Part shown: piece after piece, positions 13,527-49,542 of the stretch
Layout: every line of letters starts with the position of its first letter
How positions within the stretch are numbered: the stretch's first letter is position 1
Source: a virus
Reading direction: 5' to 3' (one strand)
DNA length: 49,542 bases
IMG/VR virus record: IMGVR_UViG_3300025085_000039
Location: 1-49,542 of that record
Translations under genes and position numbers: made by a program
The notes under the pieces: generated by a model
What the model was told of the DNA's origin: nothing
What the model saw: only the letters and a program-made list of their open reading frames with translations
Databases searched by the model: none

Positions 13527-13534
13527 TATTTAGT
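13527..13534 (-). promoter_or_regulatory. Late promoter motif ACTAAATA for gene ending 13003
   Basis: On the minus strand ACTAAATA ends 5 nt before ATG 13521. It forms the left half of an inverted repeat with the + strand motif at 13541-13548. Confidence 0.6.
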
Positions 13535-13540
13535 CTCAAG

Positions 13541-13548
13541 ACTAAATA
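13541..13548 (+). promoter_or_regulatory. Late promoter motif ACTAAATA for gp25
   Basis: T4-like late -10 variant (T4: TATAAATA) lying 12 nt upstream of the gp25 ATG at 13561. It is the right half of the 22-bp palindrome 13527-13548. Confidence 0.55.
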
Positions 13549-13560
13549 TTTATACTAAAA

Positions 13561-14046
13561 ATGGCAGTAAGATTAGATAACCTTAAATTGACCTCTATTG
13601 AGGAGAAGTCCCTCGAGAGTGGTTACTTGTATAAAGATGTTAAGTTCGATCTCGGAATGACACGATTTGGTAAATCTGCTCTCTATGCTGAACAGACTCT
13701 TAAAGATCTTGATGAATTGCAAGATGGTCAAGCTGTTATTAATAGTGTAAAGAATATACTCACAACTACACCAGGTCAGAAGCTTCTCAACCCTACACTT
13801 GGTCTCGACTTTAGAAGCTATCTATTTGAGCCGATTAATACTACTACATCATTCTTCTTGGCTCAGTTTATCTATAGCAACTTAGGAGTACAAGAGCCTC
13901 GCATTACATTAGAAGGTGTAACTATTGAGAGTCTACAAGATCAAAATCAATACAATATTGAGATAACATTTAGTATACCTAAACTTGATATCTATGATCT
14001 ATCTCTAAATGCTTCTTTGAATAAAGATGGCTACGTTTTGGTTTGA
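13561..14046 (+). CDS. 25: Baseplate wedge protein gp25 (GPW/gp25 family)
   Basis: 161 residues. The core GQKLLNPTLGLDFRSYLFEP, followed by a helix and the VQEPRITLEGVTIESL strand, is the GPW/gp25 signature found in contractile-tail baseplates, where gp25 joins the wedge and sheath. Length fits (T4 gp25 is about 132 aa; marine relatives are often longer at the N terminus). gp6 follows at 14077, the usual pairing. The upstream TAAATA motif marks it as late. Its presence is direct evidence that block B belongs to a myovirus. Confidence 0.85.
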   Translation: MAVRLDNLKLTSIEEKSLESGYLYKDVKFDLGMTRFGKSALYAEQTLKDLDELQDGQAVINSVKNILTTTPGQKLLNPTLGLDFRSYLFEPINTTTSFFLAQFIYSNLGVQEPRITLEGVTIESLQDQNQYNIEITFSIPKLDIYDLSLNASLNKDGYVLV

Positions 14047-14062
14047 TAACTAAGGCTTATAG

Positions 14063-14070
14063 ATTAAATA
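14063..14070 (+). promoter_or_regulatory. Late promoter motif ATTAAATA for gp6
   Basis: It lies 6 nt before ATG 14077 in the 30-nt gap after gp25. Confidence 0.65.
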
Positions 14071-14076
14071 TCTATA

Positions 14077-15918
14077 ATGAGCTTAGAAGATTTCACAGAC
14101 TACAAACTTCCTAAGAACGCATACCTTACGTTCGATGCAGATTCTCTTAAGAATCTCATTATTGAGCGTTTGAATGAAAATGAAACGTTTACTGATCAGA
14201 ACTTCGAAGGTTCTAACTTCAGTGCTTTCATTGATGTTGTAGCTTATATGTATCACGTTCTTCTCTTCCAGCTCAATACTACCTCTAACGAGTCTACATT
14301 TGATACAGCTACAATTTACGAGAACATGAATAAGCTTGTATCTAACATTGGTTATAAGCCTCTTGGTGATCAAACTTCACTCGCTAATATTTCTCTTTCT
14401 GCTACTAACCTAGCATCTAACGTTTATACAATTCCTCGCTACTCTACTATTGCTGCTGATGGTAACACTTTTGTAGCCACTAAAGATATCACATTTGAAA
14501 AGGTTGCAGATAATATTATTGAAGAGGTTACTCCTTCTAATACTACTCTCTACCAAGGTACTCTTACAGAAGCTACTTTCAATGCTACTGGTGAGCCATA
14601 TGAGAATATCATTCTTGTTGATAGCTTTACTTCAAAGCAGTTTACTCAAAGTGCAAAGAACCTTAACAATACAAAGTTTATTAGTGATAATACCTTTAGT
14701 GTATTTGTACAGAATAATGTTACTAGTGTTTGGGATGAGTATACTGAGACAGCTTCTCTATTCCTTGAGAGTGCTGATGCTAAGAAGTTCGAAAAGCGTC
14801 TTAATGCTTCAGGTAACTACGAGTTTAAGTTCGGTAACAACCTTAATGGTAAGCAGCTTAATGGTAATGATACTGTATTAATATATTACGTTGTATCTGA
14901 TAATGATGCTGGTGATATTGGTCCAGGTGCTTTTGTTGGTTCTTCATTCACCCTTTATAACTCTAAAAACTTCGGCGAAGTTAAAGACATTCTCTTTGAT
15001 AGTGATCAGACAATCATAACAGCTGCTCAACTTGCTAACCTTACAGTTAATAATCCAACAGCTTCTTCACCAACAAAGAAGGCAGAGACAGTAGAAGATA
15101 TTAGAACAAATGCTCCTAAAGTATTTGCTTCTCAGAACCGTCTTGTTACAAAGGATGATTACAGATATCAGATTAATAGAAACTTCAATAACATTACTCG
15201 CGATGTTAAGGTTCTTTCTAACGAAGATTATACATCAAAAGTACTTGCTTACTATAATGATTTAGGTCTCGCTAATGGTAATGATGATGCTCGTGTTCTT
15301 TACTCACAAGTTCTCTTCTCTACTTCAACTAGCTTTAACAACGTTTATGTTTATACAGTACCAAACGGTAATCCAACATTAGATGGTACAATTCCAAACT
15401 TCCTTAATGCAGCTCAAAAGCAGCTTATCTCAGACTTCTGTGATAATAAGAAAGACATTACTCAGAACGTAGTTGTTGCTGATCCAATCTTCAAAGCATT
15501 TGCATTCGGTGCTACAAGCCTTGGAAGTTCATTTGCTACAAATGATACAATCGATGATATTGTTAATAACTCTAAGCTTCGTATTACATTAGATAGAAAC
15601 CAAGCTATCAATGATGGTGCTGTTAAGACAGCTGTCTTTAATACATTTAACAACTACTTTAACAATGTACAGTTGGGTGATGTTATTGATGTAGCTGCTC
15701 TTACTAATGATGTTCTTAATATTCCAGGTGTTACAGCTCTTCACACTGTTAACGGTGATGCTGAAGTTGCTAACCTTAGCTTTGCTGTATGGAATCCTGA
15801 CTATAAAGACGAAGATCGTGTTATTCAGTCTCTCAACTATCAGCTTGAAGACTTCCAGTTCGCTTATTTCTACAATCCAAAGGATATAGCTAATAAGATT
15901 GAACTTCGTCGCTTGTAA
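14077..15918 (+). CDS. 6: Baseplate wedge protein gp6 (baseplate J-like)
   Basis: 613 residues, close to T4 gp6 (660). The N-terminal segment FIDVVAYMYHVLLFQLNTTSNESTF followed by NMNKLVSNIGYKPL (quoted in pieces) is typical of gp6/gpJ-like wedge proteins; the VEDIRTNAPKVFASQNRLVTKDDY stretch in the middle is the other hallmark. gp6 dimers form the continuous ring of the baseplate and clamp gp7/gp53. It is preceded by its own late motif. No anomalies seen. Confidence 0.85.
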   Translation: MSLEDFTDYKLPKNAYLTFDADSLKNLIIERLNENETFTDQNFEGSNFSAFIDVVAYMYHVLLFQLNTTSNESTFDTATIYENMNKLVSNIGYKPLGDQTSLANISLSATNLASNVYTIPRYSTIAADGNTFVATKDITFEKVADNIIEEVTPSNTTLYQGTLTEATFNATGEPYENIILVDSFTSKQFTQSAKNLNNTKFISDNTFSVFVQNNVTSVWDEYTETASLFLESADAKKFEKRLNASGNYEFKFGNNLNGKQLNGNDTVLIYYVVSDNDAGDIGPGAFVGSSFTLYNSKNFGEVKDILFDSDQTIITAAQLANLTVNNPTASSPTKKAETVEDIRTNAPKVFASQNRLVTKDDYRYQINRNFNNITRDVKVLSNEDYTSKVLAYYNDLGLANGNDDARVLYSQVLFSTSTSFNNVYVYTVPNGNPTLDGTIPNFLNAAQKQLISDFCDNKKDITQNVVVADPIFKAFAFGATSLGSSFATNDTIDDIVNNSKLRITLDRNQAINDGAVKTAVFNTFNNYFNNVQLGDVIDVAALTNDVLNIPGVTALHTVNGDAEVANLSFAVWNPDYKDEDRVIQSLNYQLEDFQFAYFYNPKDIANKIELRRL

Positions 15919-15932
15919 ACACTTGCTCGGCG

Positions 15933-15940
15933 ATTAAATA
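15933..15940 (+). promoter_or_regulatory. Late promoter motif ATTAAATA
   Basis: CGATTAAATAAGTGTATG: the motif ends 5 nt before ATG 15946. The same 18-nt string precedes ATG 30004. Confidence 0.7.
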
Positions 15941-15945
15941 AGTGT

Positions 15946-18159: not shown

Positions 18160-18163
18160 TACT

Positions 18164-21483: not shown

Positions 21484-21503
21484 TTGTATAAGCAGACTTT
21501 GCC

Positions 21504-21511
21504 ATTAAATA
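21504..21511 (+). promoter_or_regulatory. Late promoter motif ATTAAATA
   Basis: It ends 6 nt before ATG 21518, in the 34-nt gap after the small PKD gene. Confidence 0.68.
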
Positions 21512-26770: not shown

Positions 26771-26778
26771 ATTAAATA
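26771..26778 (+). promoter_or_regulatory. Late promoter motif ATTAAATA
   Basis: It ends 5 nt before ATG 26784 and decides that start over an in-frame TTG at 26751. Confidence 0.7.
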
Positions 26779-29990: not shown

Positions 29991-29998
29991 ATTAAATA
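29991..29998 (+). promoter_or_regulatory. Late promoter motif ATTAAATA
   Basis: CGATTAAATAAGTGTATG, identical to the string before 15946. The motif ends 5 nt before ATG 30004. Confidence 0.7.
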
Positions 29999-37157: not shown

Positions 37158-37197
37158 TATACCTATAGTATAAATGCTAAATAACTATAATCAACTA

Positions 37198-37531: not shown

Positions 37532-37539
37532 TATTTATA
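37532..37539 (-). promoter_or_regulatory. Late promoter TATAAATA
   Basis: Minus strand: perfect T4 late consensus, 7 nt before ATG 37524. It is part of a divergent TATTTA-N10-TAAATA pair. Confidence 0.8.
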
Positions 37540-37545
37540 CCAGAG

Positions 37546-37553
37546 ACTAAATA
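37546..37553 (+). promoter_or_regulatory. Late promoter motif ACTAAATA
   Basis: It ends 5 nt before ATG 37559 and is divergent with TATAAATA at 37532-37539. Confidence 0.65.
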
Positions 37554-37558: not shown

Positions 37559-38005
37559 ATGAAGAACTTCGGTAAAAGATTCGCACAGGTTATTAAGGAA
37601 AATACAGCTGAGCAAGAAGCGTTTGAAGACGCACTTGAAGCTGATACAGCTCCAGATGAGTTTGATGTAGATGTTGAAGCTGATCCAGAGGCTACTGCTG
37701 ATGTAGTTGAGGAAGATCCAGCTATTAAGGCTGCTGCAGCTCAAGGTGAGATCAATGCAAAGATGGTTGCTACACTTCAAGGCTGGATTGCTGATGGAGA
37801 TGCTTTCCTTGCTAAGCTTAATGATGCTTCTAACCCAGATTCAATTGCATACGCTCTTGGTAATGCTGAGCCAGATTCACTTTTCGACAAAATGGCTGCC
37901 GAACAACGTCGTGTTTCTAAAGTAGCTACTGACCTTGCTGCTCTTAACGAGACAATGCGTGGTTACCTTGCTCAGTCTGGTGATGCTTCTCTCCGAGGCG
38001 TTTAA
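37559..38005 (+). CDS. Small acidic late protein
   Basis: 148 residues. The basic start MKNFGKRFAQVIKENTAEQE is followed by a strongly acidic stretch (about 25-60) and a helical C-terminal half (AKMVATLQGWIADGDAFLAK, EQRRVSKVATDLAALNETMR). A lone + strand late gene among minus genes, with its own promoter and terminator, suggests a structural or prohead-core-type protein needed in quantity. This is inference; no family is recognised. Its stop overlaps the primase stop on the other strand by 3 nt. Confidence 0.6.
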   Translation: MKNFGKRFAQVIKENTAEQEAFEDALEADTAPDEFDVDVEADPEATADVVEEDPAIKAAAAQGEINAKMVATLQGWIADGDAFLAKLNDASNPDSIAYALGNAEPDSLFDKMAAEQRRVSKVATDLAALNETMRGYLAQSGDASLRGV

Positions 38006-39036
38006 AGATTATTGAAACGTTTTACCTCAGACATCTTAACAATACCTTCGAGTCCTTCGAAGGTATTTTTTTGTATCCATTCCCAGCTAATCTCATCTTT
38101 ATTAGCTGCAATAGCAAGGTCATTGAAGTCTTTATACTTCCTACCTAACGTTTCAGGCCATATAAACACGGTCTCTCCTTGGTTAAGTAAAGCCTCTGAC
38201 TTTATCATGGATGCTCTATCACCCCACTGAGAATCGAGTATCCACACCTTATCATACCATTTAAGAGTACCATTTAACTGCTCTTCTTGCCTCTTAGTAA
38301 ATGATCTTCCTCGTTCAGTAATACCAGCAACAGCTACTGAGTTACGTACAAAGAATGCATCAATAGGACCTTCGAAGATATACACCTTATCATGATCACT
38401 AGATACTTTATCAATGTTAAATAAGGTCTTCTCAGCTCCTACTTTACCAAGATACTTAGGCTTAGTTCTTAAGTCTGATGTCTTTACTGTTCTCGTCTGG
38501 TAGAACTCTATCTCCCCTCTTTCATTAACAAAAGGTATAACGATTCTATTCTTATGAACCATATCCTTAAGGGATACATAAAGGTTATCTGGTCTATTGA
38601 CAGCTGTATCTAACCTTCTAGACTTTATGATATGCTTACAAGCTCTAATAATGTGATTATCTTTATAAAACTCAAGCTGATGTTCATCACTGAAGTTAAT
38701 ACTATCTTCTGGCAAAGTAGATACTTGTACCTTCTCTCTAACCTCTTCTACCTTCCCAATATCTACAGATACATCATAATCTTTTACTTCGTTGATTATG
38801 TCTTGATTAGTACAACCACTTACTTCAATGATCCACTTCCACGGCTTACTTGACCAACCACAATTGTGGCAGTAGATGTTATCGTTTTCAGGTATGTAGT
38901 AACACCTCTTCTTCTTTAGTGATTCACGACACACAGGACAAGAGCACTGATACACATTATTGAACCTATTGTGTATAGGGCTCCTGCCGAATTCGTAGAA
39001 CTTAGCTACGACATACTCTTGCGGAAGTGAGATCAC
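38002..39036 (-). CDS. 61: DNA primase, gp61-like
   Basis: 344 residues. The N terminus has a zinc site (C33-P-V-C36 and C56-H-N-C59). A TOPRIM-like core follows: KVYIFEGPIDAFFV (catalytic Glu in FEGPID) and VWILDSQWGD (second acidic motif). It makes RNA primers for lagging-strand synthesis with the helicase at 44760. T4 gp61 is 342 aa. The GTG at 39036 is the start: TATAAT lies 5 nt upstream, directly after the exonuclease stop. Its 3' end contains a terminator for the opposite strand. Confidence 0.85.
   Translation of the reverse strand: MISLPQEYVVAKFYEFGRSPIHNRFNNVYQCSCPVCRESLKKKRCYYIPENDNIYCHNCGWSSKPWKWIIEVSGCTNQDIINEVKDYDVSVDIGKVEEVREKVQVSTLPEDSINFSDEHQLEFYKDNHIIRACKHIIKSRRLDTAVNRPDNLYVSLKDMVHKNRIVIPFVNERGEIEFYQTRTVKTSDLRTKPKYLGKVGAEKTLFNIDKVSSDHDKVYIFEGPIDAFFVRNSVAVAGITERGRSFTKRQEEQLNGTLKWYDKVWILDSQWGDRASMIKSEALLNQGETVFIWPETLGRKYKDFNDLAIAANKDEISWEWIQKNTFEGLEGIVKMSEVKRFNNL
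38041..38072 (+). terminator. Intrinsic terminator inside the primase gene
   Basis: AATACCTTCGA, loop GTCCT, TCGAAGGTATT then TTTTT: an 11-bp stem with a T7 tail overlapping the stem end. It terminates the + strand late gene 37559-38005, 36 nt after its stop, while coding for the primase C terminus on the minus strand. Confidence 0.85.
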
Positions 39037-39041
39037 GACTT

Positions 39042-39047
39042 ATTATA
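39042..39047 (-). promoter_or_regulatory. TATAAT box abutting primase start
   Basis: Minus strand TATAATAAGTC-GTG: TATAAT ends 5 nt before the GTG at 39036. Confidence 0.5.
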
Positions 39048-39048
39048 A

Positions 39049-39918
39049 CTAACCGAACATAGAAAGCAACTTGTTGCTCATAATGAAGAGTGTATGCCAT
39101 GCTTCCTTCTTCTTAAGAATATTCTCCATCTTATACTCTTCGCAAAGACAGACAAACTCTGACCAACGAGCTTCGATATCTACATCGAGCTGCTCTTGAT
39201 AGTAGTTAGCTTCTGATTCGTGAGACATAACCTCATTAAGGTCAAACACTTTCATGTTCTTCTCGAAGATAGCTTCTTGCTCTTCGTTAAGCTCAAGCTC
39301 ACCATCAAGCCACTTACGTACTTTAGCCTTACCAAAGCGAGGAATACCAGGAACGTTATCTGACTTATCACCTAAGAGGCACTTAGCACGAAGCCATTCG
39401 TTCTTAGTATAGTCAGTATCTTCTTTGAAGGTATCTAAAGTAAACTCACGCTTACGAATAGCATCGTAAAGTACAGTCTTGTCATCTACAAGCTGAAGGA
39501 AGTCACGATCTACTGATACAATAACCTTCTCACCTTCGAATGTCTTACAAATATAAGCTACAATATCATCTGCTTCTCTCTCACGAGGAAAGATAGAAGG
39601 AATACCTAAACAAGAAAGCATTTCCTTGATCTGCTCGTTCTGATGATGAGGAGTACTATCCTTACTACGAGTACCCTTATAACCATCTAACTGCTCCTTA
39701 CGAATATTAGGCTGATAGTCTTCCTTCTCATCCCATACACAAATGGTCTTAGTAGGCTTAAACTTATTAGCGTAAGAGTAAATAGCATTCAAGGTAAAGT
39801 ATACATGCATATTAGCAATCAACTCAGTATCTTCTATACCTTGTCTTTTACCTTGATTCTTGGCAGTCCACCATGTTCGGTGGATAAGGTTATTGCCATC
39901 AATTATTAGAGTTTTCAT
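39049..39918 (-). CDS. rnh: 5'-3' exonuclease / RNase H, T4 Rnh-like
   Basis: 289 residues from ATG 39918, so that the protein begins MKTLIIDGNNLIHRTWW, the usual FEN-family start; an in-frame ATG 36 nt upstream would add a non-conserved leader. Metal-binding acids are visible: D7, D63, E115/D117/D118 (REREADD), D137/D139 (SVDRDF) and D184/D187 (LGDKSDNVPG), the last leading into a helix-3-turn-helix (GIPRFGKAKV). It removes RNA primers on the lagging strand. T4 Rnh has 305 aa. A TATAAC box lies 4 nt before the start. Confidence 0.85.
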   Translation of the reverse strand: MKTLIIDGNNLIHRTWWTAKNQGKRQGIEDTELIANMHVYFTLNAIYSYANKFKPTKTICVWDEKEDYQPNIRKEQLDGYKGTRSKDSTPHHQNEQIKEMLSCLGIPSIFPREREADDIVAYICKTFEGEKVIVSVDRDFLQLVDDKTVLYDAIRKREFTLDTFKEDTDYTKNEWLRAKCLLGDKSDNVPGIPRFGKAKVRKWLDGELELNEEQEAIFEKNMKVFDLNEVMSHESEANYYQEQLDVDIEARWSEFVCLCEEYKMENILKKKEAWHTLFIMSNKLLSMFG

Positions 39919-40171
39919 TAGCGTTATATTGTGCAGAGCAGACCTTAAAGACATCCTTAGGAGTCTCCTCTACATGTTCAATTATATCAGAGTTCCTTCC
40001 GATAGTCCACTTATCTGTAGGAACTTTGACATTTTTCATGTCTGGTACTGATAAGCAACCAATCTCTTTATCAGTTACTTCACATACAATAAACATCTGA
40101 CCTACATAGTCACCATGATGTACTGCGTAACAATCTCTTCTTTTAGTGGAATTTTGATCCATTGTCTCCAT
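39899..40171 (-). CDS. Hypothetical protein, preceded by the window's clearest Shine-Dalgarno
   Basis: 90 residues (METMDQNSTKRRDCYAVHHG, then GQMFIVCEVTDKEIGCLSVP; small beta-rich domain). Minus strand AGGAGG lies 5 nt before ATG 40171, an exception in a region where such sites are missing. Its end overlaps the exonuclease start by 20 nt, and the coding sequence contains an exact AGGAACTCTG-ATATAATT string (39980-39997), possibly an internal promoter for the exonuclease/primase pair. Function unknown. Confidence 0.55.
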   Translation of the reverse strand: METMDQNSTKRRDCYAVHHGDYVGQMFIVCEVTDKEIGCLSVPDMKNVKVPTDKWTIGRNSDIIEHVEETPKDVFKVCSAQYNANENSNN

Positions 40172-40451
40172 ATGTACCTCCTAAATTACCTGCAACAAAT
40201 AATCTCATTGCTAAGGTATCTAATGCATCTAATTGCATATCGGAATTGGCACCTTTTATTAATATTGTTTTACCGTCAATATCATAACCGAAGATGTAGA
40301 ATGTATCTAGATACTCAGCTACGATACTCTTTAATTTCTCTCGTAGTTGTTTCTCGTTCTTAAAGCCTTTAAGATCTTCAGCATGCAAGTTTAGAGCGCT
40401 ATTGATTAGATCATCAATATCGTTATTTTGCTCCTCCGGCTTCTCGTCCAT
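40143..40451 (-). CDS. Hypothetical protein
   Basis: 102 residues (begins MDEKPEEQNNDIDDLINSAL; LREKLKSIVAEYLDTFYIFG; then DGKTILIKGANSDMQLDALD and a Gly-rich end). It has an acidic N terminus and an alpha/beta core. It overlaps the previous and next genes by 29 nt on each side, with TATAATAAGA directly before its ATG. Its location in the clamp-exonuclease cluster suggests a replication accessory role, but I do not recognise it. Confidence 0.5.
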   Translation of the reverse strand: MDEKPEEQNNDIDDLINSALNLHAEDLKGFKNEKQLREKLKSIVAEYLDTFYIFGYDIDGKTILIKGANSDMQLDALDTLAMRLFVAGNLGGTYGDNGSKFH

Positions 40452-40797
40452 TCTTATTATACTTATTCAAGAACTCTGAATCTTCAACTTGTAGTACCTG
40501 ATGATCAATTAATCTTTGTACTACAACATCAATAGAGCTCGTCTTAAGGACGTAACCTCGAGGAAATCTCTGGTTACCATCCTCAAAACTAAACAAGTAT
40601 TCATCTTTGAATGGTCTATTCTCAAAGCAAGTAATGTATACTGAAGCACCTCCTGGGTCAACAAGTACCGTCCACTTACGAGAATCGTGATCGCCGTACT
40701 TATCAAACATCCTAAAGGTCACGTACTTATGATCTTTAAGACGCTTGATGAAGTAACCAGCTGTCTTTAGTTTGTTCTTTTGGTTGTTAGATAGCAT
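40423..40797 (-). CDS. Hypothetical protein downstream of the sliding clamp
   Basis: 124 residues from ATG 40797, one base after the clamp stop (TAA-G-ATG); an earlier in-frame start at 40863 would lie deep inside the clamp gene and is rejected. The product (MLSNNQKNKLKTAGYFIKRL, FRMFDKYGDHDSRKWTVLVD, PGGASVYITCF) is a compact alpha/beta protein. T4 has the clamp loader gp44 here, but there is no Walker motif, so it is not a loader subunit. Confidence 0.55.
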   Translation of the reverse strand: MLSNNQKNKLKTAGYFIKRLKDHKYVTFRMFDKYGDHDSRKWTVLVDPGGASVYITCFENRPFKDEYLFSFEDGNQRFPRGYVLKTSSIDVVVQRLIDHQVLQVEDSEFLNKYNKNGREAGGAK

Positions 40798-40798
40798 C

Positions 40799-41551
40799 TT
40801 ACTGGGTAAGTGATGAAACAATATACTTAAGCTTAATCTCTTCTGCTTCTTGCTCAAATACAACTACACCGTACTCTTTATTAACCCTAACAGTAAACGA
40901 ACCACTAATATTATTAAGTAGACGAATATTATCGAAGTTAACTGGAATAGGATCAAGTTCTACCTTAACCAAGCCAATGCACATAGTAAAGTTATCAGTA
41001 TTATGACGAGCCCTATCAGTAAGCTCAGCCATAAGTCTAAATCCTTCACCACCTTTATTCTCTTCAGTATAAAAGTAAAGCTTATTAGTCTCAGAAGCAA
41101 ATACAGAACCCTTGAAGATCTGATTGAGAATATTACTATCAATGACAAAGCCCATATCGAACTCAAATGCATTAATCTTCTCAACATTAAGGCCTGGCTT
41201 ACTCAAGAAACCCTCGTCAAATAGATGGTACTTAAACTTAACACCATTGCCCTTATACTCTAAGTTATTTGAGTTAACCTTAAGGTCAATCTCATCATCA
41301 AAGCCTACTGTCTTGAGGACATTAGTTAACTTCTTTACATCTGGAATATTCAGAGTAGAAGAGAAGTCAGTACCAGCAGCATATTCTGCATGGAGGATAA
41401 GAGTATTGTCAGTAGAAGCAACAAGACTAGAAGTCTTATCACTATCTAACTGAACAATAGCACTCTCACTTATCTTTGATAAAGAGTCTAAAAAAGCTAC
41501 GAACTTTTCAGGCGACTTTAGACTTAGCTTTCTTTCTTGTTGGTTTGACAT
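40799..41551 (-). CDS. 45: DNA polymerase sliding clamp, gp45-like
   Basis: 250 residues (T4 gp45 has 228). It matches the gp45 two-domain pattern: KLSLKSPEKFVAFLDSLSKI at the start, then DNTLILHAEY, SSTLNIPDVKKLTNVLKTVG, DMGFVIDSNILNQIFKGSVF, and an acidic/hydrophobic end with SGSFTVRVNKEYGVVVFEQE. It forms the trimeric ring that tethers the polymerase and, in T4, activates late promoters together with gp33/gp55. Its 5' end overlaps the Pro/Ala-linker gene by 44 nt. The clamp loader genes are not in this window. Confidence 0.88.
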   Translation of the reverse strand: MSNQQERKLSLKSPEKFVAFLDSLSKISESAIVQLDSDKTSSLVASTDNTLILHAEYAAGTDFSSTLNIPDVKKLTNVLKTVGFDDEIDLKVNSNNLEYKGNGVKFKYHLFDEGFLSKPGLNVEKINAFEFDMGFVIDSNILNQIFKGSVFASETNKLYFYTEENKGGEGFRLMAELTDRARHNTDNFTMCIGLVKVELDPIPVNFDNIRLLNNISGSFTVRVNKEYGVVVFEQEAEEIKLKYIVSSLTQ

Positions 41552-42014
41552 TTGTACTCTCTAATTGTAGCTTAATATCTTTCAATAGCAAGTTGCTTTC
41601 TTTAACAGCAGCAAGCAACTGATCCATCTGGCTTGGCTCACTAAAGTCCAAACCAAGTTGCTCTTCTACAACTGGAGCAGGAGCTACTGGTGCAGGTGCT
41701 ACAGGAGCAGCAGCTTGAAGTTCTAACTGAGCTTGCTCAGGTGTAACAGGAGCAGGAGCTACAGGAGCTGGAGCAGCTTGAGGTTGTGGAGCAGGAGCTT
41801 GAGGTGCTGGAGCTGGCTGAGGTGGTTGTTGACTGGATGCAACAGTAGGTGTTGCCACCAACTGCTCAACCATATTCTTCATCTCATTAGACTTAGCTTG
41901 AAGCTGTGCTGATGCACCAACGATCATATCGTCTTGCTTCTTCATCTGCCCATAAGTCTGACCCATAAGCTGCATTACCGCAGCCTTGGCTTCGGGTGTC
42001 ATTGGATCACTCAT
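41508..42014 (-). CDS. Pro/Ala-linker protein with a QLGLDF motif
   Basis: 168 residues in three parts: an N-terminal helix (about 1-55, AKAAVMQLMGQTYGQMKKQD), a Pro/Ala/Gln linker (about 56-116), and a C-terminal helical part ending in a basic tail (KPTRKKAKSKVA). QLGLDF at 119-124 fits the bacterial clamp-binding consensus QxxLxF. Its place between gp32 and the clamp, both replication core genes, is suggestive. The function is not known. It starts 5 nt after the gp32 stop. Confidence 0.55.
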   Translation of the reverse strand: MSDPMTPEAKAAVMQLMGQTYGQMKKQDDMIVGASAQLQAKSNEMKNMVEQLVATPTVASSQQPPQPAPAPQAPAPQPQAAPAPVAPAPVTPEQAQLELQAAAPVAPAPVAPAPVVEEQLGLDFSEPSQMDQLLAAVKESNLLLKDIKLQLESTNVKPTRKKAKSKVA

Positions 42015-42019
42015 AACTC

Positions 42020-42874
42020 TTAGAGGTCGGCAAGAAGGTCATCGATGTCATCTTCAACAGAGGAAGTAGTCTCTGCTGGAGCCGGTGCTGGAGCTGGAGC
42101 TGCTTCTGCTGGAGCGGACCAAGGAGGTGTATCACCAGCGGCAGGAGTCTCAACAGTAGGCTCATCAGCCTTACAATGGAAGTGCTCATTAAGCATAGTA
42201 ACAAGCTCGTCATTACTCTTAACAGGGAAGGTCTCCTTGAGAGTGTGAGTTTGACTATAGATATCCTTCTGCTGATCTTCAGAAAGATTCAACTTACCAG
42301 CAGCAGTAAAGCGAGAGGAAACATAGGTAGGATAGTCGCCTTGCTGCTCACACTTAATCTTGAAGTTAACACCTTCTTCACCGAGGTCAAAGATCTTAGC
42401 ACCGAACTCAGCGGCGTCTTCACCTTCGATAGCTTCAGTAATGATCTTGTGAAGCTGCTTACCATAGCGAAGCATCTTGACTTTACCATTGTTATCAGGG
42501 TTAGTAGGATCGTCTACAACATAGACGTTAACAAGCCACTTCTCGGAACGACGGAGTTGAGAAGCTTTCTCTTTCTCAGCATCAGAACCCATACGGCTAA
42601 GCTTGAAGCGCTCCTCGTTAATAGGGCAACGCTCACCAAAGGTCTGAGGACTAAGAGCTTGGACATACTGACCGGTAGCAAAGCTATTCCAACCCATATT
42701 GTAGTAGTGGAAGAAGGTATCTGCTGGAGACTTACCATCTGGAAGCAAGCGAACGGTATAGGTATTACCTGGCTTGGTTTGCATGATTTCGGAGAACTTA
42801 CTCTTACCGGACTCATTGCTGGAGGCTAAAGCACCTTTGATGCTTTCGAACATACTCATATTAAATGCACTCAT
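42020..42874 (-). CDS. 32: Single-stranded DNA-binding protein, gp32-like
   Basis: 284 residues (T4: 301). The core matches gp32: FFHYYNMGWNSF, then ERCPINEERFKLSRMG, KWLVNVYVVDDPTNPDNNGK, LRYGKQLHKIITEA. The acidic C terminus DDIDDLLADL matches T4's DLDDLLNDL tail, which binds gp59, primase and polymerase. The zinc site is degraded: T4 has CPVC, here C83-P-I-N86, so the second Cys is missing. A Pro/Ala linker precedes the tail. It is coupled to gp59 by a 1-nt gap. Confidence 0.88.
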   Translation of the reverse strand: MSAFNMSMFESIKGALASSNESGKSKFSEIMQTKPGNTYTVRLLPDGKSPADTFFHYYNMGWNSFATGQYVQALSPQTFGERCPINEERFKLSRMGSDAEKEKASQLRRSEKWLVNVYVVDDPTNPDNNGKVKMLRYGKQLHKIITEAIEGEDAAEFGAKIFDLGEEGVNFKIKCEQQGDYPTYVSSRFTAAGKLNLSEDQQKDIYSQTHTLKETFPVKSNDELVTMLNEHFHCKADEPTVETPAAGDTPPWSAPAEAAPAPAPAPAETTSSVEDDIDDLLADL

Positions 42875-42875
42875 A

Positions 42876-43526
42876 TTACTTTTGTTTTTCTGTTATTATT
42901 TTAGTTACTTTGTCTTTTGTTTCTCTGGCCTTTGATTTAAGTATCTTAGAGCCAAGATATTTTGTGCGCGTAAGCGCGAAAAGGGATTTAAAGTCCTTGA
43001 CGATGAAGTCCAATACGTCTCGTTCGACGGTCTTAATGATGGGTTCAACTTCAAGGGCATGTAATGTATAAAAGTTTAGCCTATGTTCTTGTAAATGCAA
43101 CAGGCAAGTAGGCATATTGTTAGTAAAATGTTTTTGGTACTCTTCAAGTGTAAGAGAGTTCCTTATACAGAACTTGGCTACATACCTGAAGCCATCTTTC
43201 ATTACCTCAATATTGTCATCACTATCAGGATTTGAGACTTCCTTCTCTTTCATGTAGATGGAATAGCATTTAAGTGCCTTCCTACTATTAAAGAACTTAA
43301 GGTCAAACCATTCATCCTTATTATACACACTGAATGGAGCAGCAAACCAATCTCTATAGTTAATATGGTTATGCTTAACAAAGAAGGCAGATAGCTTCTT
43401 AAGAGCTACAAAGTCAGCATCTTTCAACTTACTAAAGTCTTTTCTGAAGCGAGTAGGCTTACCCTGAGCAGTTCGGGTAGCATACAGATAGCTATTGTAG
43501 ATATCTTTTTCTCTTTCAGTTACCAT
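42876..43526 (-). CDS. 59: gp59-like helicase loader
   Basis: 216 residues (T4 gp59: 217), highly basic and all-helical: EREKDIYNSYLYATRTAQGK, KLSAFFVKHNHINYRDWFAA, then FRYVAKFCIRNSLTLEEY and a Lys-rich end. It lies directly upstream of gp32 in the same transcript, as in T4 (59-32). gp59 loads the gp41 helicase onto gp32-coated DNA. The call rests on size, charge, helical pattern and synteny; sequence similarity is weak by eye. TATAAT lies 8 nt before the ATG. Confidence 0.65.
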   Translation of the reverse strand: MVTEREKDIYNSYLYATRTAQGKPTRFRKDFSKLKDADFVALKKLSAFFVKHNHINYRDWFAAPFSVYNKDEWFDLKFFNSRKALKCYSIYMKEKEVSNPDSDDNIEVMKDGFRYVAKFCIRNSLTLEEYQKHFTNNMPTCLLHLQEHRLNFYTLHALEVEPIIKTVERDVLDFIVKDFKSLFALTRTKYLGSKILKSKARETKDKVTKIITEKQK

Positions 43527-43558
43527 TCACAATGATTATAACTGATTCTAAAGTGAAA

Positions 43559-43855
43559 TCAACTCTTTAGTGCACCCTTATTCTGATTGAGGTACTTAGT
43601 AATGTACTTTGACTCTGCAATCTGTGGTTCAAACTCAATAAACAACTTCACCAACTCAAAGTCATTGTCTACAGTTAAGAGAGTCTTGAGCATATTACGA
43701 AGCTTCTCTTCTTTTAGTACCAATACGAAAATGTTTTGTAAGGAGAGTCTCTTACCTTTAATCTGACAACAAAATGTGCAAAAGCATAACATCAAATGCT
43801 CAAGCTCTCTTTTGGTAATATCGCCTGAAGGTAGGGGTACGTTGGGTTGTTTCAT
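43559..43855 (-). CDS. Hypothetical protein in the gp33 position
   Basis: 98 residues (begins MKQPNVPLPSGDITKRELEH; LMLCFCTFCCQIKGKRLSLQ; then two helices KLRNMLKTLLTVDNDFELVK). It is all-helical with a CFCTFCC cluster. In T4 the gene upstream of 59-32 is 33, the late-transcription coactivator, and the size is similar (112 aa). The gp33 C-terminal LDFLL clamp-binding end is not present here, so I do not assign it. Its ATG overlaps the DHH gene stop (TAATG). Confidence 0.5.
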   Translation of the reverse strand: MKQPNVPLPSGDITKRELEHLMLCFCTFCCQIKGKRLSLQNIFVLVLKEEKLRNMLKTLLTVDNDFELVKLFIEFEPQIAESKYITKYLNQNKGALKS

Positions 43856-44730
43856 TATTGAATTGGGGTAAGGGTTTTAGTCCAGTTAGCAAACGTTTCT
43901 GTTAGTTTACCTCCTGCTAAGTTATGTGCACCACCACCTTCGCATAGCTTCTCTGCCAACTTACCTAAGTTAAGTTGTACACCTCTCTGCTTTCTAAAGG
44001 ATACAACTTTAGCTTCAAGGTTAACCATAATGGCTACATCAGCATCGTACTTATCAAGCATGTAGTTTGCTACTTCATTAACTTGTTTAGTCACAAATGT
44101 AGATACAACCTTATAGTCTTTGATCATACCAGCAAATTTTGGATTCTCTAACTGCTCAACAAAGGCTTTAAAGTGAAGCTTAATAGCTCCTCGTTCATGT
44201 GCAGTAAAGTCTCTTAAACCATCCTTGAATGACTCAATAAACTTCTCTGCTTTAGGTTTGTTATAACCATAATAGATAGCATTTAGTTTGGCTGGTTCCA
44301 TCTCACGTGGAAAGTCAAATGACCAGCTATCATATTGATCAATTAGATCTACTAATGCTTCCTTTTCAGGTGTTACATTAATCTTTGACTTAAACTTATC
44401 AAAAATCAATTGTGTGCAAGAAGAGTAAGGTGTTACAACAGCTTTAGCTTTAGTATACTGCTCAACAAACTTGGCATGTGTTTCGTGATGATCAACTACT
44501 ACAACATTGCTGCGGTTAATTGCAATGGCTTGCTCTTCATTAAGGGATAAGTCACATACAAAGATCTTGTCGAAGTGATCAAGAGTGTTCCAACGATTTT
44601 TAAACTCATTAAGGATACGATACTCGGACGTTTCAACAATAATTACTTCATGACCAGCAAAGACCTCTTTTAAGAGTAAGGCTGAGCCTGCTCCATCAAG
44701 GTCTGAATCAGTAAAGATAAGTATGTGCAC
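43855..44730 (-). CDS. DHH-family phosphoesterase
   Basis: 291 residues with the complete DHH set: D8-S-D10-L-D12-G (motif I), VCD60 (II), VVD80-H81-H82 (III), DLIDQYDSW near 128-136 (IV), and C-terminal GGGAHNLAGG (DHHA1 substrate loop). The family includes RecJ and NrnA-type nano-RNases that cut short oligonucleotides to mononucleotides. Between helicase and loader genes it may recycle nucleotides or degrade primer fragments. I choose the GTG at 44730 because motif I starts at residue 5; a TATATAC run lies directly upstream. Confidence 0.8.
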   Translation of the reverse strand: MHILIFTDSDLDGAGSALLLKEVFAGHEVIIVETSEYRILNEFKNRWNTLDHFDKIFVCDLSLNEEQAIAINRSNVVVVDHHETHAKFVEQYTKAKAVVTPYSSCTQLIFDKFKSKINVTPEKEALVDLIDQYDSWSFDFPREMEPAKLNAIYYGYNKPKAEKFIESFKDGLRDFTAHERGAIKLHFKAFVEQLENPKFAGMIKDYKVVSTFVTKQVNEVANYMLDKYDADVAIMVNLEAKVVSFRKQRGVQLNLGKLAEKLCEGGGAHNLAGGKLTETFANWTKTLTPIQ

Positions 44731-44759
44731 GTATATACTTAATACCTCTCAGGGATAAA

Positions 44760-46067
44760 TCAACTCTGGGCAAATGCTGCAAGGGATGATAAAGTATTAT
44801 CATCTTCTAGATCATCTACATCATCAGCTTGCTCAATAGACAAAGTAGAGTAGTCAATTCTCATAGCTTGAGTCATACCTCGAGGACCATAACGGTTCTT
44901 CATCATACCCAATCTAATAATACCTAAGTCTCTATCTTCATCATTCTGGAAGATCGACATAATAACATCAGCAGTAGCAGCCAAGCCAATCGATTCAGAG
45001 ATAGTAGCTAGATCAGGATTATCTTGATCGAAGCCAGCTCGGTTCAACTGAGTAGCACTAATAATAGGGCAGTTAAACACGTAACTAATGGCTCTTACCT
45101 GTTCAGTAACATTCTTAATACGCTCATAGGAATTATTACCAATAGGGCTATGAATGAGGTTAAGGTAGTCAATAACAATCGCATCTAAGTGAATACCTTG
45201 ATCGGTAAACTTCTTAGCAAAAGCTTTAATAGTATTAGGAGTAATAGTCGAAGGAGGAAATTCTTTGATATAGACATTACCATCACCTTCAGTCATAGCA
45301 GCTCTCAATGAAGGTCCATTAACAGCCATCTCCTTCATAGGAATCTTAGATACATGAGTACAAATACGACGAGCATAAAGTAACTCGGACATCTCAAGAG
45401 TAATTAGCAGGACATTCTTACCTTGCTCTGCAATATTAGCAGCAACGTTACCTAAGAAGATAGACTTACCAATATTAGTCTCACCTGCGAAGACATATAG
45501 TGACTTACCATCTTTAAGAAAGCCACCATCAAGAGAGTCATCAAGCCATTCCCAGTTAGAAGGGATCTTATCTTCTACTGTAGTAAGATCTTCAATAATA
45601 GTATCAATGTTATCTTTAACACTAAGACCTAAGTCAGTAACAAGACTAATATTACAACTCTTCTCAAACTTATCTAGGATAACAGAAGTATCAACCTCAC
45701 CAGCTGAGATAGCCTCAGCAGATTCCATCATAGTACAGTATACAGCCTTCTCCTTAAGGAACTGCTCAGTATTCTGCAGTAACTCATCCTTATCAATACC
45801 CTTATCAATATCAGCAAAGCTACCTACTAACCTTCTAAAGGTCTCCTTGAGCTGATCAGTAACTAAGTACTGCTTAATCTCAGTCGTAGTAGGAAGTTTG
45901 TTACGAGTCTCATTGAACTCTTTGATGATAGTAAAGATGTCAGATATATCTTTACTCTTGAAGAACTCCGGCTGAACATTATCAGCAATGGTACTAAGAT
46001 AACCGCTATCAGTTAGCGCGTTATACATAAGTACGTTTTCGAAGTAATCTAAATCAAGCTTAGCCAT
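44760..46067 (-). CDS. 41: Replicative DNA helicase, gp41/DnaB-like
   Basis: 435 residues (T4: 475). The N-terminal helical domain spans about 1-150. The RecA-type core has Walker A G195-ETNIGKS202, a Walker B strand DAIVID (about 295-300) followed by YLNLIHSP, and the motif ISATQLNRAG near 335. It is the hexameric 5'-3' helicase that acts with the primase at 38002 and the loader at 42876. The C terminus is acidic (DDVDDLEDDN). It is first in the minus-strand replication run; TATACT lies 7 nt upstream of the ATG. Confidence 0.9.
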   Translation of the reverse strand: MAKLDLDYFENVLMYNALTDSGYLSTIADNVQPEFFKSKDISDIFTIIKEFNETRNKLPTTTEIKQYLVTDQLKETFRRLVGSFADIDKGIDKDELLQNTEQFLKEKAVYCTMMESAEAISAGEVDTSVILDKFEKSCNISLVTDLGLSVKDNIDTIIEDLTTVEDKIPSNWEWLDDSLDGGFLKDGKSLYVFAGETNIGKSIFLGNVAANIAEQGKNVLLITLEMSELLYARRICTHVSKIPMKEMAVNGPSLRAAMTEGDGNVYIKEFPPSTITPNTIKAFAKKFTDQGIHLDAIVIDYLNLIHSPIGNNSYERIKNVTEQVRAISYVFNCPIISATQLNRAGFDQDNPDLATISESIGLAATADVIMSIFQNDEDRDLGIIRLGMMKNRYGPRGMTQAMRIDYSTLSIEQADDVDDLEDDNTLSSLAAFAQS

Positions 46068-46102
46068 CGTAATCAGTATAATAGATTAGTTTTAATAATC
46101 AA

Positions 46103-46780
46103 CTAGATCTTTACAGTCTTACCAACGTACTTTTTGTACTTCTTAAGGAACCACTTCTGACCATTTGTCCAGTCTTCAGTAAATTCTCTAAGGCCAGGTG
46201 AAGCATGAGTGATGTATGCATCAATCACACCACATTTGAACCCCTTTAGTGAGGCATCAAGGGTATAAGCAAGGTCGTAGAAGTGGAAACCAGCAGGACA
46301 TGACTCATCAAATCGAATCTTCTTAAAGACCTTCCTCGAGATGGCCAAGAATACACCATCCATAATAAGAGCTTGGTGTGGGTAAGGACCAAATGCTGTC
46401 ATTGACTTCTTACCTTTGTTCAAATGAGCTACTGCACCATGTAGATTACCTCCTTGGAAGCCTCCACCCATAAGATGCCATAGAGCTGGTTCTTGAATCT
46501 TAATTTGTGAAGCTCCTGCTACACCTAAGACATCATATGTCTCAAAATGCTTCTTTAGCTTCTCATAATCAAAGTTCTCAAGTACAATATCATCATGACA
46601 TAGAACAATATGATCAATGTTCTCCTTAATGGCAAAGTCAATCGCCTTGTTGTATACAGATTGAAGGGAGTCAGTGTTGTGTTCTTTGAAGAAGACTTCA
46701 AGATCTCCTTTTGTGTGGTGTAGAAGGGTATCTTCACGCTTACCCTTTGTAGCAGCACATATAAATAGATTGTTGTTCAT
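46103..46780 (-). CDS. Family-2-type glycosyltransferase
   Basis: 225 residues. The GT-A fold pattern is MNNNLFICAATKGKRE, then IDHIVLCHDDIVLENFDYEK (HDD as the DxD-type nucleotide-sugar site), FGPYPHQALIMDGVFLAISR and FDESCPAGFHFYDLAYTLDA, like StrF-related glycosyltransferases. It presumably transfers a sugar to a phage or host surface target, or to modified DNA. Coupled by TAATG to the amidotransferase upstream, so the two enzymes may belong to one pathway. Confidence 0.75.
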   Translation of the reverse strand: MNNNLFICAATKGKREDTLLHHTKGDLEVFFKEHNTDSLQSVYNKAIDFAIKENIDHIVLCHDDIVLENFDYEKLKKHFETYDVLGVAGASQIKIQEPALWHLMGGGFQGGNLHGAVAHLNKGKKSMTAFGPYPHQALIMDGVFLAISRKVFKKIRFDESCPAGFHFYDLAYTLDASLKGFKCGVIDAYITHASPGLREFTEDWTNGQKWFLKKYKKYVGKTVKI

Positions 46781-47448
46781 TATAGGAATAGGAAAGGTGA
46801 TTCATGCTTAAACTCACCTACTTTATTAAAGCGAAGAGTCTTTTTATTAAGGCGTCTAATCTCACCTTCCTTTAGTTCTTTGTAATTCTTACCAGGTAAT
46901 GTAGAGTAGCAGCCTTTATCATTGTAGTGTAAGATGGATCCAACACGAGCGATGTATAGTTCATTGGTATCACAATCAACAATGGATACAGCAAATGAGC
47001 CTTGACACTCTTCTAGTGCTTTACGAATATAGGTAACTGGATTAGTTCCTTTTGTTCTATCGTCCTCCATAAACTTCTGAATCAAGTTCACGATTAAGGA
47101 ACTATCAACAGGATTTTCTAGGTATGGAAGAAATCTATTACGAATAGCAGCCTCATTAGTCAATACACCATTATGGAATACCATAAATGACATTGTATCG
47201 AATGGATGTGATGTTTCATAAGCCCAATCACGCATTGCTGAAGTTGGAGCTTGTACATGACCGCAGTTGTAGTTAGATTGTTTAGAGCCTTTAACATTAT
47301 CCCAATCAATCTCACCTTCTTTCTTCATGACAAATTGATCATCATAAGTAAGTTGGACGAAACTACTTGCAAACGTACCCCTACTCTGGTTAGCGGTATA
47401 TAACACCTCTAACATAGACTTATCGGGAGCTCCAAAGATAGCACACAT
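46780..47448 (-). CDS. Stand-alone class II glutamine amidotransferase
   Basis: 222 residues. It has the N-terminal nucleophile Cys2 (MCAIFGA), CGHVQAPTSA (equivalent to GHTRWAT), FHNGVLTNEAAIRNR, DSSLIVNLIQKF and GSFAVSIVD. These are the N-terminal glutaminase motifs of GFAT and asparagine synthetase; no synthetase domain is attached. It releases ammonia from glutamine for another enzyme. Co-translation with a glycosyltransferase suggests amino-sugar chemistry, but no acceptor enzyme is visible here. Confidence 0.8.
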   Translation of the reverse strand: MCAIFGAPDKSMLEVLYTANQSRGTFASSFVQLTYDDQFVMKKEGEIDWDNVKGSKQSNYNCGHVQAPTSAMRDWAYETSHPFDTMSFMVFHNGVLTNEAAIRNRFLPYLENPVDSSLIVNLIQKFMEDDRTKGTNPVTYIRKALEECQGSFAVSIVDCDTNELYIARVGSILHYNDKGCYSTLPGKNYKELKEGEIRRLNKKTLRFNKVGEFKHESPFLFL

Positions 47449-47469
47449 ACAATATAATTTAATCTATTT

Positions 47470-47997
47470 CTAGAGCTTTGCAAGCTTAATGTTTTGTTCC
47501 TTACGATACTTAGCGGTGAGTTCCTTACTCTCCTCTTCACGACCATAATAGAGACGAAACTCTTTAGGAATGCGCCAGAAGAAGTCCATAGCACCAGTCT
47601 CTTCATGGAAGGCGAAGGTATAGTGAGGGTACATGATACCATCAACTTCGATCCACTTCTTACGCTTCTTTTTAGTCTTCTCAATACCAACCTTAGCAAG
47701 AGTATTCTTACCCAAGCCTTTTACCTTGAATAGATCATCACTACTGCGGAAGGGGCGCATGCCAACAATATTTTTAGCAGTATTCTTACCTACGCCAGGT
47801 AAAGCACGTAACTCCTTATCGTTCATCTTATTGAAGTCTCTAAAGGATAGCTTCAAATCACCAGTTTCTTCAGCTTTCTCAACTACTTTCTTAGTAGTCT
47901 TCTTAGAAGTCTTCTTAGAAGTCTTCTTAACTACCTTCCTCGCAGTCTTCTTAACTACCTTTTTAGGAGTCTTTTTTGCAGGTTGTTTCTTTGCCAT
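47470..47997 (-). CDS. Helix-hairpin-helix protein with lysine-rich, histone-like N terminus
   Basis: 175 residues. The first 45 are a Lys/Thr/Val repeat (KKVVKKTARKVVKKTSKK). At about 58-110 there are two helix-hairpin-helix motifs (LRALPGVGKNTAKNIVGM and LFKVKGLGKNTLAKVGI), as in ComEA/RuvA-type DNA binding. The rest has WIEVDGIMYPHYTFAF and FRLYYGREEESKEL. It probably binds DNA without sequence preference. Its ATG abuts an AGGAACT/TATAAT element. The tail resembles that of the zinc ribbon protein at 12692. Confidence 0.7.
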   Translation of the reverse strand: MAKKQPAKKTPKKVVKKTARKVVKKTSKKTSKKTTKKVVEKAEETGDLKLSFRDFNKMNDKELRALPGVGKNTAKNIVGMRPFRSSDDLFKVKGLGKNTLAKVGIEKTKKKRKKWIEVDGIMYPHYTFAFHEETGAMDFFWRIPKEFRLYYGREEESKELTAKYRKEQNIKLAKL

Positions 47998-48019
47998 ACC
48001 TTATTATAGGATAGTTCCT
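47998..48019 (-). promoter_or_regulatory. AGGAACT/TATAAT element
   Basis: Minus strand: AGGAACTATCC then TATAATAAGGT abutting ATG 47997. Same length (22 nt) as the copies near 36.6-36.8 kb, 11 kb away. Confidence 0.65.
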
Positions 48020-48058
48020 TTTAATTTGCAACTTTTTAAGGTAATCCATAAGCTATGG

Positions 48059-48066
48059 TATAAATA
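48059..48066 (+). promoter_or_regulatory. Late promoter TATAAATA
   Basis: Perfect T4 late consensus, ending 5 nt before ATG 48072. An ATG at 48067 is out, since it meets TGA after one codon. Confidence 0.8.
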
Positions 48067-48071
48067 ATGGT

Positions 48072-49542
48072 ATGAGTTCCTTCACCGACCTATTCAAAAG
48101 GGTACAAGTTCTTAGCGAAGCAAAAGTTTCTCCAGTAGGAAAACAAGCGCCGGTTTTTGCTAATGTACCTAAGCAGATGAAAGCCGCTGGTATGGCGTCT
48201 TCTTCACGTGATGCAATGATTTTCATCACTCAAGTTTTATCTCGTCTTGATATCATTACTCCAGAAGTATATGAGATGACAGTTAAGGGTCAACATAGGG
48301 AACGTATGGAAAAGCTCATGACAATCTTGAAATCCAAGGAAGACGAGATCAATGCTAAGTCGGACGAGATTGCTGAGTACATTAATCAGAATTTAGATAA
48401 CTATACATCCGGTGCTGGTGTAGATCGTGGTCGTACTGAAAAGTATAAAGAAGTAGCCAAGGCTATGTCACAGGAAGTTCAGAACATTAAGGCCGGTAAG
48501 GAAGCTGATGATGCTCTTCGTGATATTGTTAAGACAGCTGATAAAGATACAGTTGAGACTCTCGAGTTTAGTGCTGAAGATACTACAACCATTATTGAGA
48601 TTAATACCGGTAACGTAGCTAATGTTGAGAAAGTAAAAGCTGCTGTTGAGGAATTTGCTAATGAGTTGGGTGTTGAAGTAACTGGTAATACAGTTGAGTT
48701 CTCCGTCGATGAGGGTTCACAAATCGATCAGATGGTTAAGAAGAATGGTGTTGCTGAAACAGAAGCTTTCTTTACAAGAGCATTTGAAGGTGATTATCCA
48801 ATCAGTGTTTCTATTATTCCACCTGCAGGTGCTGAAGAGAAGGAAAAGGTAAAAGCTGTAACAGATGCTATTTCAAGTAAGCCAGAAGGAATCGAAGGTC
48901 GTGAGCATATTGCAAGTGTTGGTGCTGCAGCAGATAGGTTTTTGAAGAAGCGTGGTTTAGAAGATGCTGAAGATGCTGAAGGTAAGTATGATGACAACGA
49001 TGGTGAAGAAGAGCGTTGTGATTATGTTCCTTGTGAGGATGGTGAGCTTGGCTGTAAGTGTGGTGAGTGTCCAGATTGCACTCCTAAAGAAGATGCTGAA
49101 GTTACTCAACTTGATCCTCGTGTTATGGAGACAATTGATGTAATGATTGGTGCTGCCTTGGAAATGGAAGATACTGAATACCCTGAGGTTAAGGGTATGG
49201 TCGAGGCTGGAATTGGTCGTGAGCTTACTGATGAAGAGCGTGCATACCTTATGGATGAGCTTGGTGTTGAGCCAGACGATTTTGAAGACGAAGAGGAAGT
49301 TGTTTCTGAAAGTAAGTATACTACTGCTGACTACCTTACAGACATTTACGCTGACGTTAAGCCAATCGTAGAAACACTTGAAGAGTCAGTAACCGTTAAT
49401 GAAAATGGTCAAACAACTCACACACAACAATATCTCGTTGAGAAGCGTGAAGAAGCAATTGAACAGGTTTATACAAACCAATATCTTACAGAACAGAAAG
49501 CATCGGACTCATTGCTTGTTCCTAAAGAAGAAAAACGTCAAT
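48072..49542 (+). CDS. Large acidic late protein with Cys cluster, 3' partial
   Basis: The frame is open for 490 codons to the window edge. It begins MSSFTDLFKRVQVLSEAKVS. Helical segments follow (KLMTILKSKEDEINAKSDEI), then two alpha/beta parts (EFSAEDTTTIIEINTGNVAN; EVTGNTVEFSVDEGSQIDQM), an acidic stretch, and six cysteines at 316, 321, 328, 330, 333 and 336 that could bind zinc. Very acidic after that (EPDDFEDEEEVVSESKY). The late promoter and composition suggest a prohead core, scaffold or injected protein. I do not recognise the family. Confidence 0.65.
   Translation, partial: MSSFTDLFKRVQVLSEAKVSPVGKQAPVFANVPKQMKAAGMASSSRDAMIFITQVLSRLDIITPEVYEMTVKGQHRERMEKLMTILKSKEDEINAKSDEIAEYINQNLDNYTSGAGVDRGRTEKYKEVAKAMSQEVQNIKAGKEADDALRDIVKTADKDTVETLEFSAEDTTTIIEINTGNVANVEKVKAAVEEFANELGVEVTGNTVEFSVDEGSQIDQMVKKNGVAETEAFFTRAFEGDYPISVSIIPPAGAEEKEKVKAVTDAISSKPEGIEGREHIASVGAAADRFLKKRGLEDAEDAEGKYDDNDGEEERCDYVPCEDGELGCKCGECPDCTPKEDAEVTQLDPRVMETIDVMIGAALEMEDTEYPEVKGMVEAGIGRELTDEERAYLMDELGVEPDDFEDEEEVVSESKYTTADYLTDIYADVKPIVETLEESVTVNENGQTTHTQQYLVEKREEAIEQVYTNQYLTEQKASDSLLVPKEEKRQ

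Follow-up and report, generated by a model that had tools for sequence, protein, structure and literature searches.

Late boxes next to start codons in a T4-like phage fragment

We analyzed a viral contig of 49,542 nucleotides (nt), IMG/VR record IMGVR_UViG_3300025085_000039 (positions 1 to 49,542, the whole of which is here called the window), for T4-type late promoter boxes (TAAATA) lying directly upstream of start codons. To the right of about 11.7 kb the window is a T4-like myovirus, with genes for gp25- and gp6-like baseplate wedge proteins, a gp41-like helicase, a primase, and SSB. A preliminary description of the sequence had reported such boxes before a set of genes and had read them as a sign of leaderless late mRNAs. 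Every one of these boxes was present at the reported spacing, counted as the nucleotides between the last A of TAAATA and the ATG:

13527..13532, minus strand: late box TAAATA, 5 nt to the ATG of gene 13521(-)
13543..13548, plus strand: late box TAAATA, 12 nt to the ATG of the gp25-like gene 13561; predicted leader 7 nt
14065..14070, plus strand: late box, 6 nt to the ATG of the gp6-like baseplate wedge gene 14077; kept in close relatives
15935..15940, plus strand: late box, 5 nt to the ATG of 15946
21506..21511, plus strand: late box, 6 nt to the ATG of 21518
26773..26778, plus strand: late box, 5 nt to the ATG of the tail-protein gene 26784
29993..29998, plus strand: late box, 5 nt to the ATG of 30004
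37532..37537, minus strand: late box, 7 nt to the ATG of 37524(-)
37548..37553, plus strand: late box, 5 nt to the ATG of 37559
48061..48066, plus strand: late box, sequence TATAAATA, 5 nt to the ATG of 48072

The spacer is 5 nt at six of these genes, 6 nt at two, and 7 nt and 12 nt at one each. TAAATA itself is not enriched in the window (39 occurrences on both strands), and matches to TATAAATA with at most one mismatch across the whole window occur at the level of shuffled sequence. Because bare counts are at chance, only the position of the boxes is informative. A box at 5-7 nt precedes 9 of the 32 starts in the T4-like part. Dinucleotide-shuffled upstream regions, a form of the shuffled control proposed in the preliminary description, gave a mean of 0.18 such starts (maximum 3 in 5,000 trials), so the spacing was far from equally frequent there; permuted hexamers in the same test gave a mean of 1.3 and at most 3.

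The genes listed as lacking a box had been said to mostly touch the gene upstream and to lack a Shine-Dalgarno (SD) sequence, and both statements were borne out. Gaps to the upstream gene are 27-41 nt for boxed genes, while the genes listed as unboxed follow at 0-12 nt or overlap. Among window genes of at least 120 aa, an SD was found in 1 of 22 unboxed and in none of 7 boxed genes. These observations hold for the T4-like part of the window and not for positions 1-11701, which belong to an unrelated siphovirus.

Both divergent gene pairs of the window are separated by two late boxes placed back to back:

13527..13548, both strands: divergent module TATTTA-N10-TAAATA, 22 bp, between divergent genes
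37532..37553, both strands: second divergent module TATTTA-N10-TAAATA, 22 bp, which with its 7- and 5-nt spacers makes up the whole 34-bp intergenic region

The spacing is shared across a clade of uncultured T4-like phages

We retrieved 80 relatives by means of gp6 and assembled long contigs from pieces; the clade set comprised 11 contigs (about 0.8 Mb) of uncultured T4-like phages. For each TAAATA, we scored how far downstream any ATG lay that opens an open reading frame (ORF) of at least 60 aa. Pooled over the clade, 165 sites had a spacer of 5 nt, 65 of 6 nt, and 25 of 7 nt, with about 3-15 at other close spacers; the peak at 5 nt was found in every long contig. The base before the TAAATA core was A in 59%, T in 21%, C in 16%, and G in 3%, a TATAAATA-like pattern. 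No 5-nt peak was found in T4, KVP40, Syn9, S-SM2, P-SSM2, CP220, phiM12, Cr30, DLP6, OC, PhiW-14, or RM378, and in most of these phages, T4, the cyanophages, and CP220 among them, TAAATA boxes lie 16-40 nt from the ATG. Boxes at exactly 5 nt were present at 12 sites in HTVC008M, 6 in Mosig, and 3 in Melnitz; all 12 in HTVC008M precede coding-sequence starts annotated in GenBank. We also considered boxes farther away (17-25 nt) before gp6 in the relatives at the 47-59% level as leadered promoters, but these largely overlap the conserved coding end of gp25 (LNxDGY) and were not counted.

The divergent arrangement recurs as well. In the clade, TATTTA-N-TAAATA is concentrated at N9-N10 (19 cases, 16 of them between divergent ORFs) and is nearly absent at other spacings, and the N10 module occurs 22 times among the 80 gp6 loci. 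HTVC008M has a tighter N4 module between gp2 and gp4 (18917-18942), flanked on either side by a 5-nt spacer. The intergenic regions, about 26-34 bp long, would thus appear to hold only two promoters, forming putative minimal divergent promoters.

In front of clade genes without a box, SD-like 4-mers were found at 4-13%, the level of a control region, against 48-76% in T4, KVP40, HTVC008M, Mosig, Melnitz, and CP220. The median gap to the upstream gene was 5 nt for unboxed genes, 23 nt for late-boxed genes, and 79 nt for genes with a TATAAT box (see below). The short gaps of unboxed genes are consistent with operon-internal translation by coupling.

Late boxes mark late genes

We assigned gene classes from homologues among the HTVC008M proteins. 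Of 67 late genes, 34 have a late box at 5-7 nt, against 3 of 66 others (Fisher p about 1e-9, uncorrected for relatedness). Boxed genes include gp18 (tail sheath; 8 of 8 genomes, at 5 nt), gp13 (3 of 3), and gp54 (4 of 4), and in the 138-kb contig the sheath, two tube genes, the endolysin, and tail proteins. The three boxed non-late genes are all phoH (contigs G018, G019, and G024, box at 6-7 nt), the only non-structural class with a box; this suggests that phoH may be expressed late.

In all 8 sheaths the conserved SPGVEI begins 6-8 residues past the box-adjacent ATG, so close that a downstream sheath start is not possible. The sheath genes of T4, HTVC008M, and S-SM2 have purine-rich, SD-like leaders.

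The late sigma factor gp55 was missed by single-sequence search and recovered by profile search on contigs G010, G018, G019, G022, and G024, where it is flanked by UvsW and gp47/gp46. These contigs also carry gp6. In the clade, gp33 was not recovered by phmmer; a Pfam search for gp23 gave no match there, nor any in the controls, and is therefore uninformative.

Sigma70-type promoters are placed at their own offset

Four minus-strand genes of the window have TTG-N16/17-TATA(A/C)T upstream, 5-9 nt from the ATG:

48003..48031, minus strand: sigma70-type promoter TTGCAA-N17-TATAAT, 5 nt to the ATG of 47997(-)
46075..46102, minus strand: sigma70-type promoter TTGATT-N16-TATACT, 7 nt to the ATG of the gp41-like helicase gene 46067(-)
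43535..43562, minus strand: sigma70-type promoter TTGATT-N16-TATAAT, 8 nt to the ATG of 43526(-)
37167..37194, minus strand: sigma70-type promoter TTGATT-N16-TATACT, 9 nt to the ATG of 37157(-)

The minus strand also has a cluster with replication genes, none of whose starts has a late box:

38002..47997, minus strand: replication cluster (primase, exonuclease, SSB, gp41-like helicase, RecJ-like)

In the clade as a whole, the peak for TATAAT is exactly 6 nt before the ATG (67 sites), the spacer that places the sigma70 transcription start on the start codon. This peak does not stem from coding sequence read in frame (Tyr-Asn-x-x-Met), as the other in-frame spacers of 0, 3, 9, and 12 nt gave only 9-15 sites. 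A -35 TTG was found at a spacing of 16 or 17 in 11 and 5 cases, together 16 of the 67 sites, with a background of about 1 per spacing, and T precedes the ATG in 87%. The genes uvsX, gp43, and gp55 carry TATAAT in place of the late box. Early genes therefore look leaderless too, and the strategy may be genome-wide, beyond the late regulon.

At some late-boxed 5-nt sites of the clade, a TTG lies in addition at the -35 distance of sigma70 (12 and 7 of 165 at 16 and 17), which hints at possible dual early/late promoters.

Predicted transcription starts coincide with translation starts

In T4, the numbering of the late box begins at -13, a helical turn ahead of the transcription start (PMC2988020). 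Since the box spans -13 to -6, a 5-nt spacer would place +1 on the A of the ATG. The base before the ATG at clade 5-nt sites is T in 84% and C in 14% (n=182); a pyrimidine stands there in 97-98% of these sites vs 58% of 398 boxless control ORFs, which fits a putative pyrimidine-purine initiator. The pyrimidine-purine step lies at box+5/+6 in 98% of 5-nt sites. At 7-nt sites it tends to stay there (58%) rather than shifting with the ATG, and at 6-nt sites it is mixed (46% against 35%).

We consider it highly probable that transcription and translation starts coincide in this T4-superfamily phage fragment, that is, in the window from about 11.7 kb. With less assurance, we think it reasonably probable that the whole T4-superfamily clade has an essentially leaderless, SD-free transcriptome, in which host sigma70 and phage gp55 promoters are joined to start codons, each class at an offset of its own. 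For late genes, the phage sigma factor gp55 would bring host RNA polymerase to the late box of T4 type (consensus ATAAATA). Transcription would start 6 nt past the box; at 5-nt sites this is the A of the ATG, and at 6-7-nt sites it lies 1-2 nt before that A. For early genes, a host sigma70-type holoenzyme would use TTG-N16/17-TATAAT and start about 7 nt past the box, again on the A of the ATG. The resulting leaderless mRNA, with a 5'-terminal AUG, would be engaged directly without an SD, probably by 70S ribosomes. Some 5' ends would be GUG, for example that of the gp6 orthologue of the 138-kb contig. Within an operon, the downstream genes follow the preceding one at 0-12 nt, and coupling or re-initiation would account for their translation without an SD.

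The leaderless interpretation of late mRNAs offered in the preliminary description gains support from the clade-wide 5-nt spacing, its occurrence on late genes, its absence in leadered T4-like phages, and the pyrimidine before the ATG. In scope, that interpretation was at once too narrow and too broad: early genes with sigma70-type boxes behave alike at 6 nt, while spacers of 6, 7, and 12 nt correspond to short predicted leaders (about 1, 2, and 7 nt), and many late genes have no adjacent box.

Several points weigh against coincident starts. About half of the recognizable late genes (gp22, gp23, most gp14 and gp17 starts) are without an adjacent box and probably lie inside operons. The related clade contigs are not statistically independent. 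That transcripts begin on the ATG is something we infer from sequence in all members, and the box-to-start distance is borrowed from T4 and E. coli sigma70, so that the true start could shift by 1-2 nt. We did not find gp55 in the window or in 6 of the long contigs searched, which are fragments. Finally, the design presupposes a host able to translate leaderless mRNA.

Alternative explanations

The A/T-rich box could instead be a translation-initiation element, Kozak-like or an AU-rich enhancer as in SD-less Bacteroidota, with the promoters lying further upstream. This would suit a clade without SD sequences, and SD-less bacteria have other upstream base preferences (PMC6847099). Such an element should have one optimal distance, yet TAAATA peaks at 5 nt and TATAAT at 6 nt, the canonical offset of each promoter class. 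The two boxes are unrelated, and each lies at the offset proper to its own class of promoter, which points to a constraint on the transcription start and not to a translational motif; this pair of class-specific offsets is the strongest argument for coincident starts of transcription and translation. The -35 TTG at 16/17 upstream of TATAAT sites, the tracking of box type with early or late gene class, and the presence of the same TAAATA box 16-40 nt away in leadered relatives also speak against a translational element, which we regard as quite unlikely.

Leaders that are very short but not absent would have a similar appearance. Here the polymerase would start 2-10 nt upstream and ribosomes would use a short SD-free leader, in keeping with the existence of sites at 6, 7, and 8-12 nt and with start-site choice that is often loose by 1-2 nt. 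The dominant class is nevertheless at exactly 5 nt (6 nt for TATAAT), with the pyrimidine-purine step exactly at the ATG, and we think this explanation very unlikely. A misplaced start, in which a downstream in-frame ATG behind a normal leader with or without an SD is the real one, deserves mention as many starts are mechanical ORF calls. The conserved N-termini of the sheath (SPGVEI), uvsX, and gp55 begin only a few residues past the box-adjacent ATG, and the independent GenBank starts of HTVC008M are the same ATGs, which makes this extremely unlikely.

Comparison with known systems

In the textbook system of T4 late transcription, the promoter and the ribosome-binding leader are separate elements. 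T4 late promoters (gp55/gp33/gp45) have in common with those of the clade the box sequence, the head and tail genes served, and gp55, which in the clade lies beside UvsW and gp47/gp46. In T4, however, the boxes peak 21-40 nt from the ATG and the leaders contain an SD (19 of 27), whereas the clade has 5 nt and would have no leader. Marine cyanomyoviruses have the late promoter NATAAATA (PMC2984593, PMC3037559), nearly identical to the clade box with the first position free; in S-SM2, Syn9, and P-SSM2 the boxes peak at 16-40 nt, unlike in the clade. The relevant passages of PMC2984593 and PMC3037559 contain no proposal that these promoters are leaderless. The Pelagibacter phages HTVC008M and Mosig share 5-nt boxes with the clade, but there the design is in the minority: most genes keep an SD (56%) and many boxes lie 16-40 nt away.

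Among phages, lambda cI, Thermus P23-45, and phiKZ have been reported as leaderless. They are not T4-type and are not known for a genome-wide design with two promoter classes. That leaderless phage mRNAs exist is also remarked in the AR9 paper. In leaderless bacterial genes, a TA-like signal is located about 10-12 bp before the start (PMC3160421), and in Deinococcus-Thermus a -10 motif stands beside ORFs (PMC12340547). As in the clade, coincident starts in these bacterial genes are signalled by a -10-like box placed 6-7 bp ahead of the ORF, but they involve cellular sigma70 only, without a T4-type late promoter or a phage clade. In the literature searched, which excluded most subscription papers so that an earlier mention is possible, we found neither a description of late promoters of T4 type that are fused to start codons nor one of a phage clade with both promoter classes so fused.

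Contig composition and host

Positions 1-11701 of the window are siphovirus-like, with relatives including Nonlabens phage P12024, and SD-like sequences occur in 4 of its 7 genes. Three near-identical contigs (L001-L003) align to the window from 11.7-12.4 kb on and have no match to the left of this, where L002 has a different fibre gene with a 2,160-aa frame. The window therefore looks like a chimera, with a putative junction at about 11702-11800, inside a shared fibre domain or gene. The leaderless finding is limited to the T4-like right part, as positions 1-11701 are from an unrelated phage. Megablast of the window against phage records gave no match.

We rejected a flavobacterial host, which had been suspected because the left end is Nonlabens-like and SD sequences are missing. 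The left end is part of another phage, boxes of the Bacteroidota type (TAnnTTTG) have no clear peak, and the early promoters are TTG/TATAAT. Host-linked copies of gp6 and gp17 were sought in two scans of bacterial genomes, neither of which gave any. Ribosomal protein S21, considered as a helper of SD-free initiation, is present in HTVC008M, Mosig, and Melnitz and was not found in the clade.

The 138-kb contig (L081, contig G002) has 25 tRNA genes, one of which (2757-2830 and surroundings) has the anticodon CTA (amber suppressor type); TAG still stops 21 of its 179 ORFs of at least 100 aa, and recoding is not evident. In the window, the protein encoded at 46780-47448(-) (MCAIFGAPDKS...) resembles at its start a class II glutamine amidotransferase, with Cys at position 2, while its PHROGs matches are all of unknown function.

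Implications

The same sigma-factor family appears to work without a leader in a large and widespread uncultured aquatic clade, and partly so in the cultured HTVC008M. The 12 leaderless-type late genes of this cultured phage make the idea testable. If confirmed, classic T4 gene control would be coupled to a quite different translation start, and the gradient from leadered T4 through mixed HTVC008M to the leaderless clade would be a natural case of rewiring of initiation within one conserved regulon. Divergent late genes would then have a start-to-start distance of about 32 bp. The spacing would also be of practical use as a rule by which to call promoters, operon heads, and true start codons where phage genomes lack SD sequences, and the leaderless design would be a clue to the host of the clade. 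If the interpretation is true, an abundant aquatic phage group, and probably its host too, would use leaderless translation by default.

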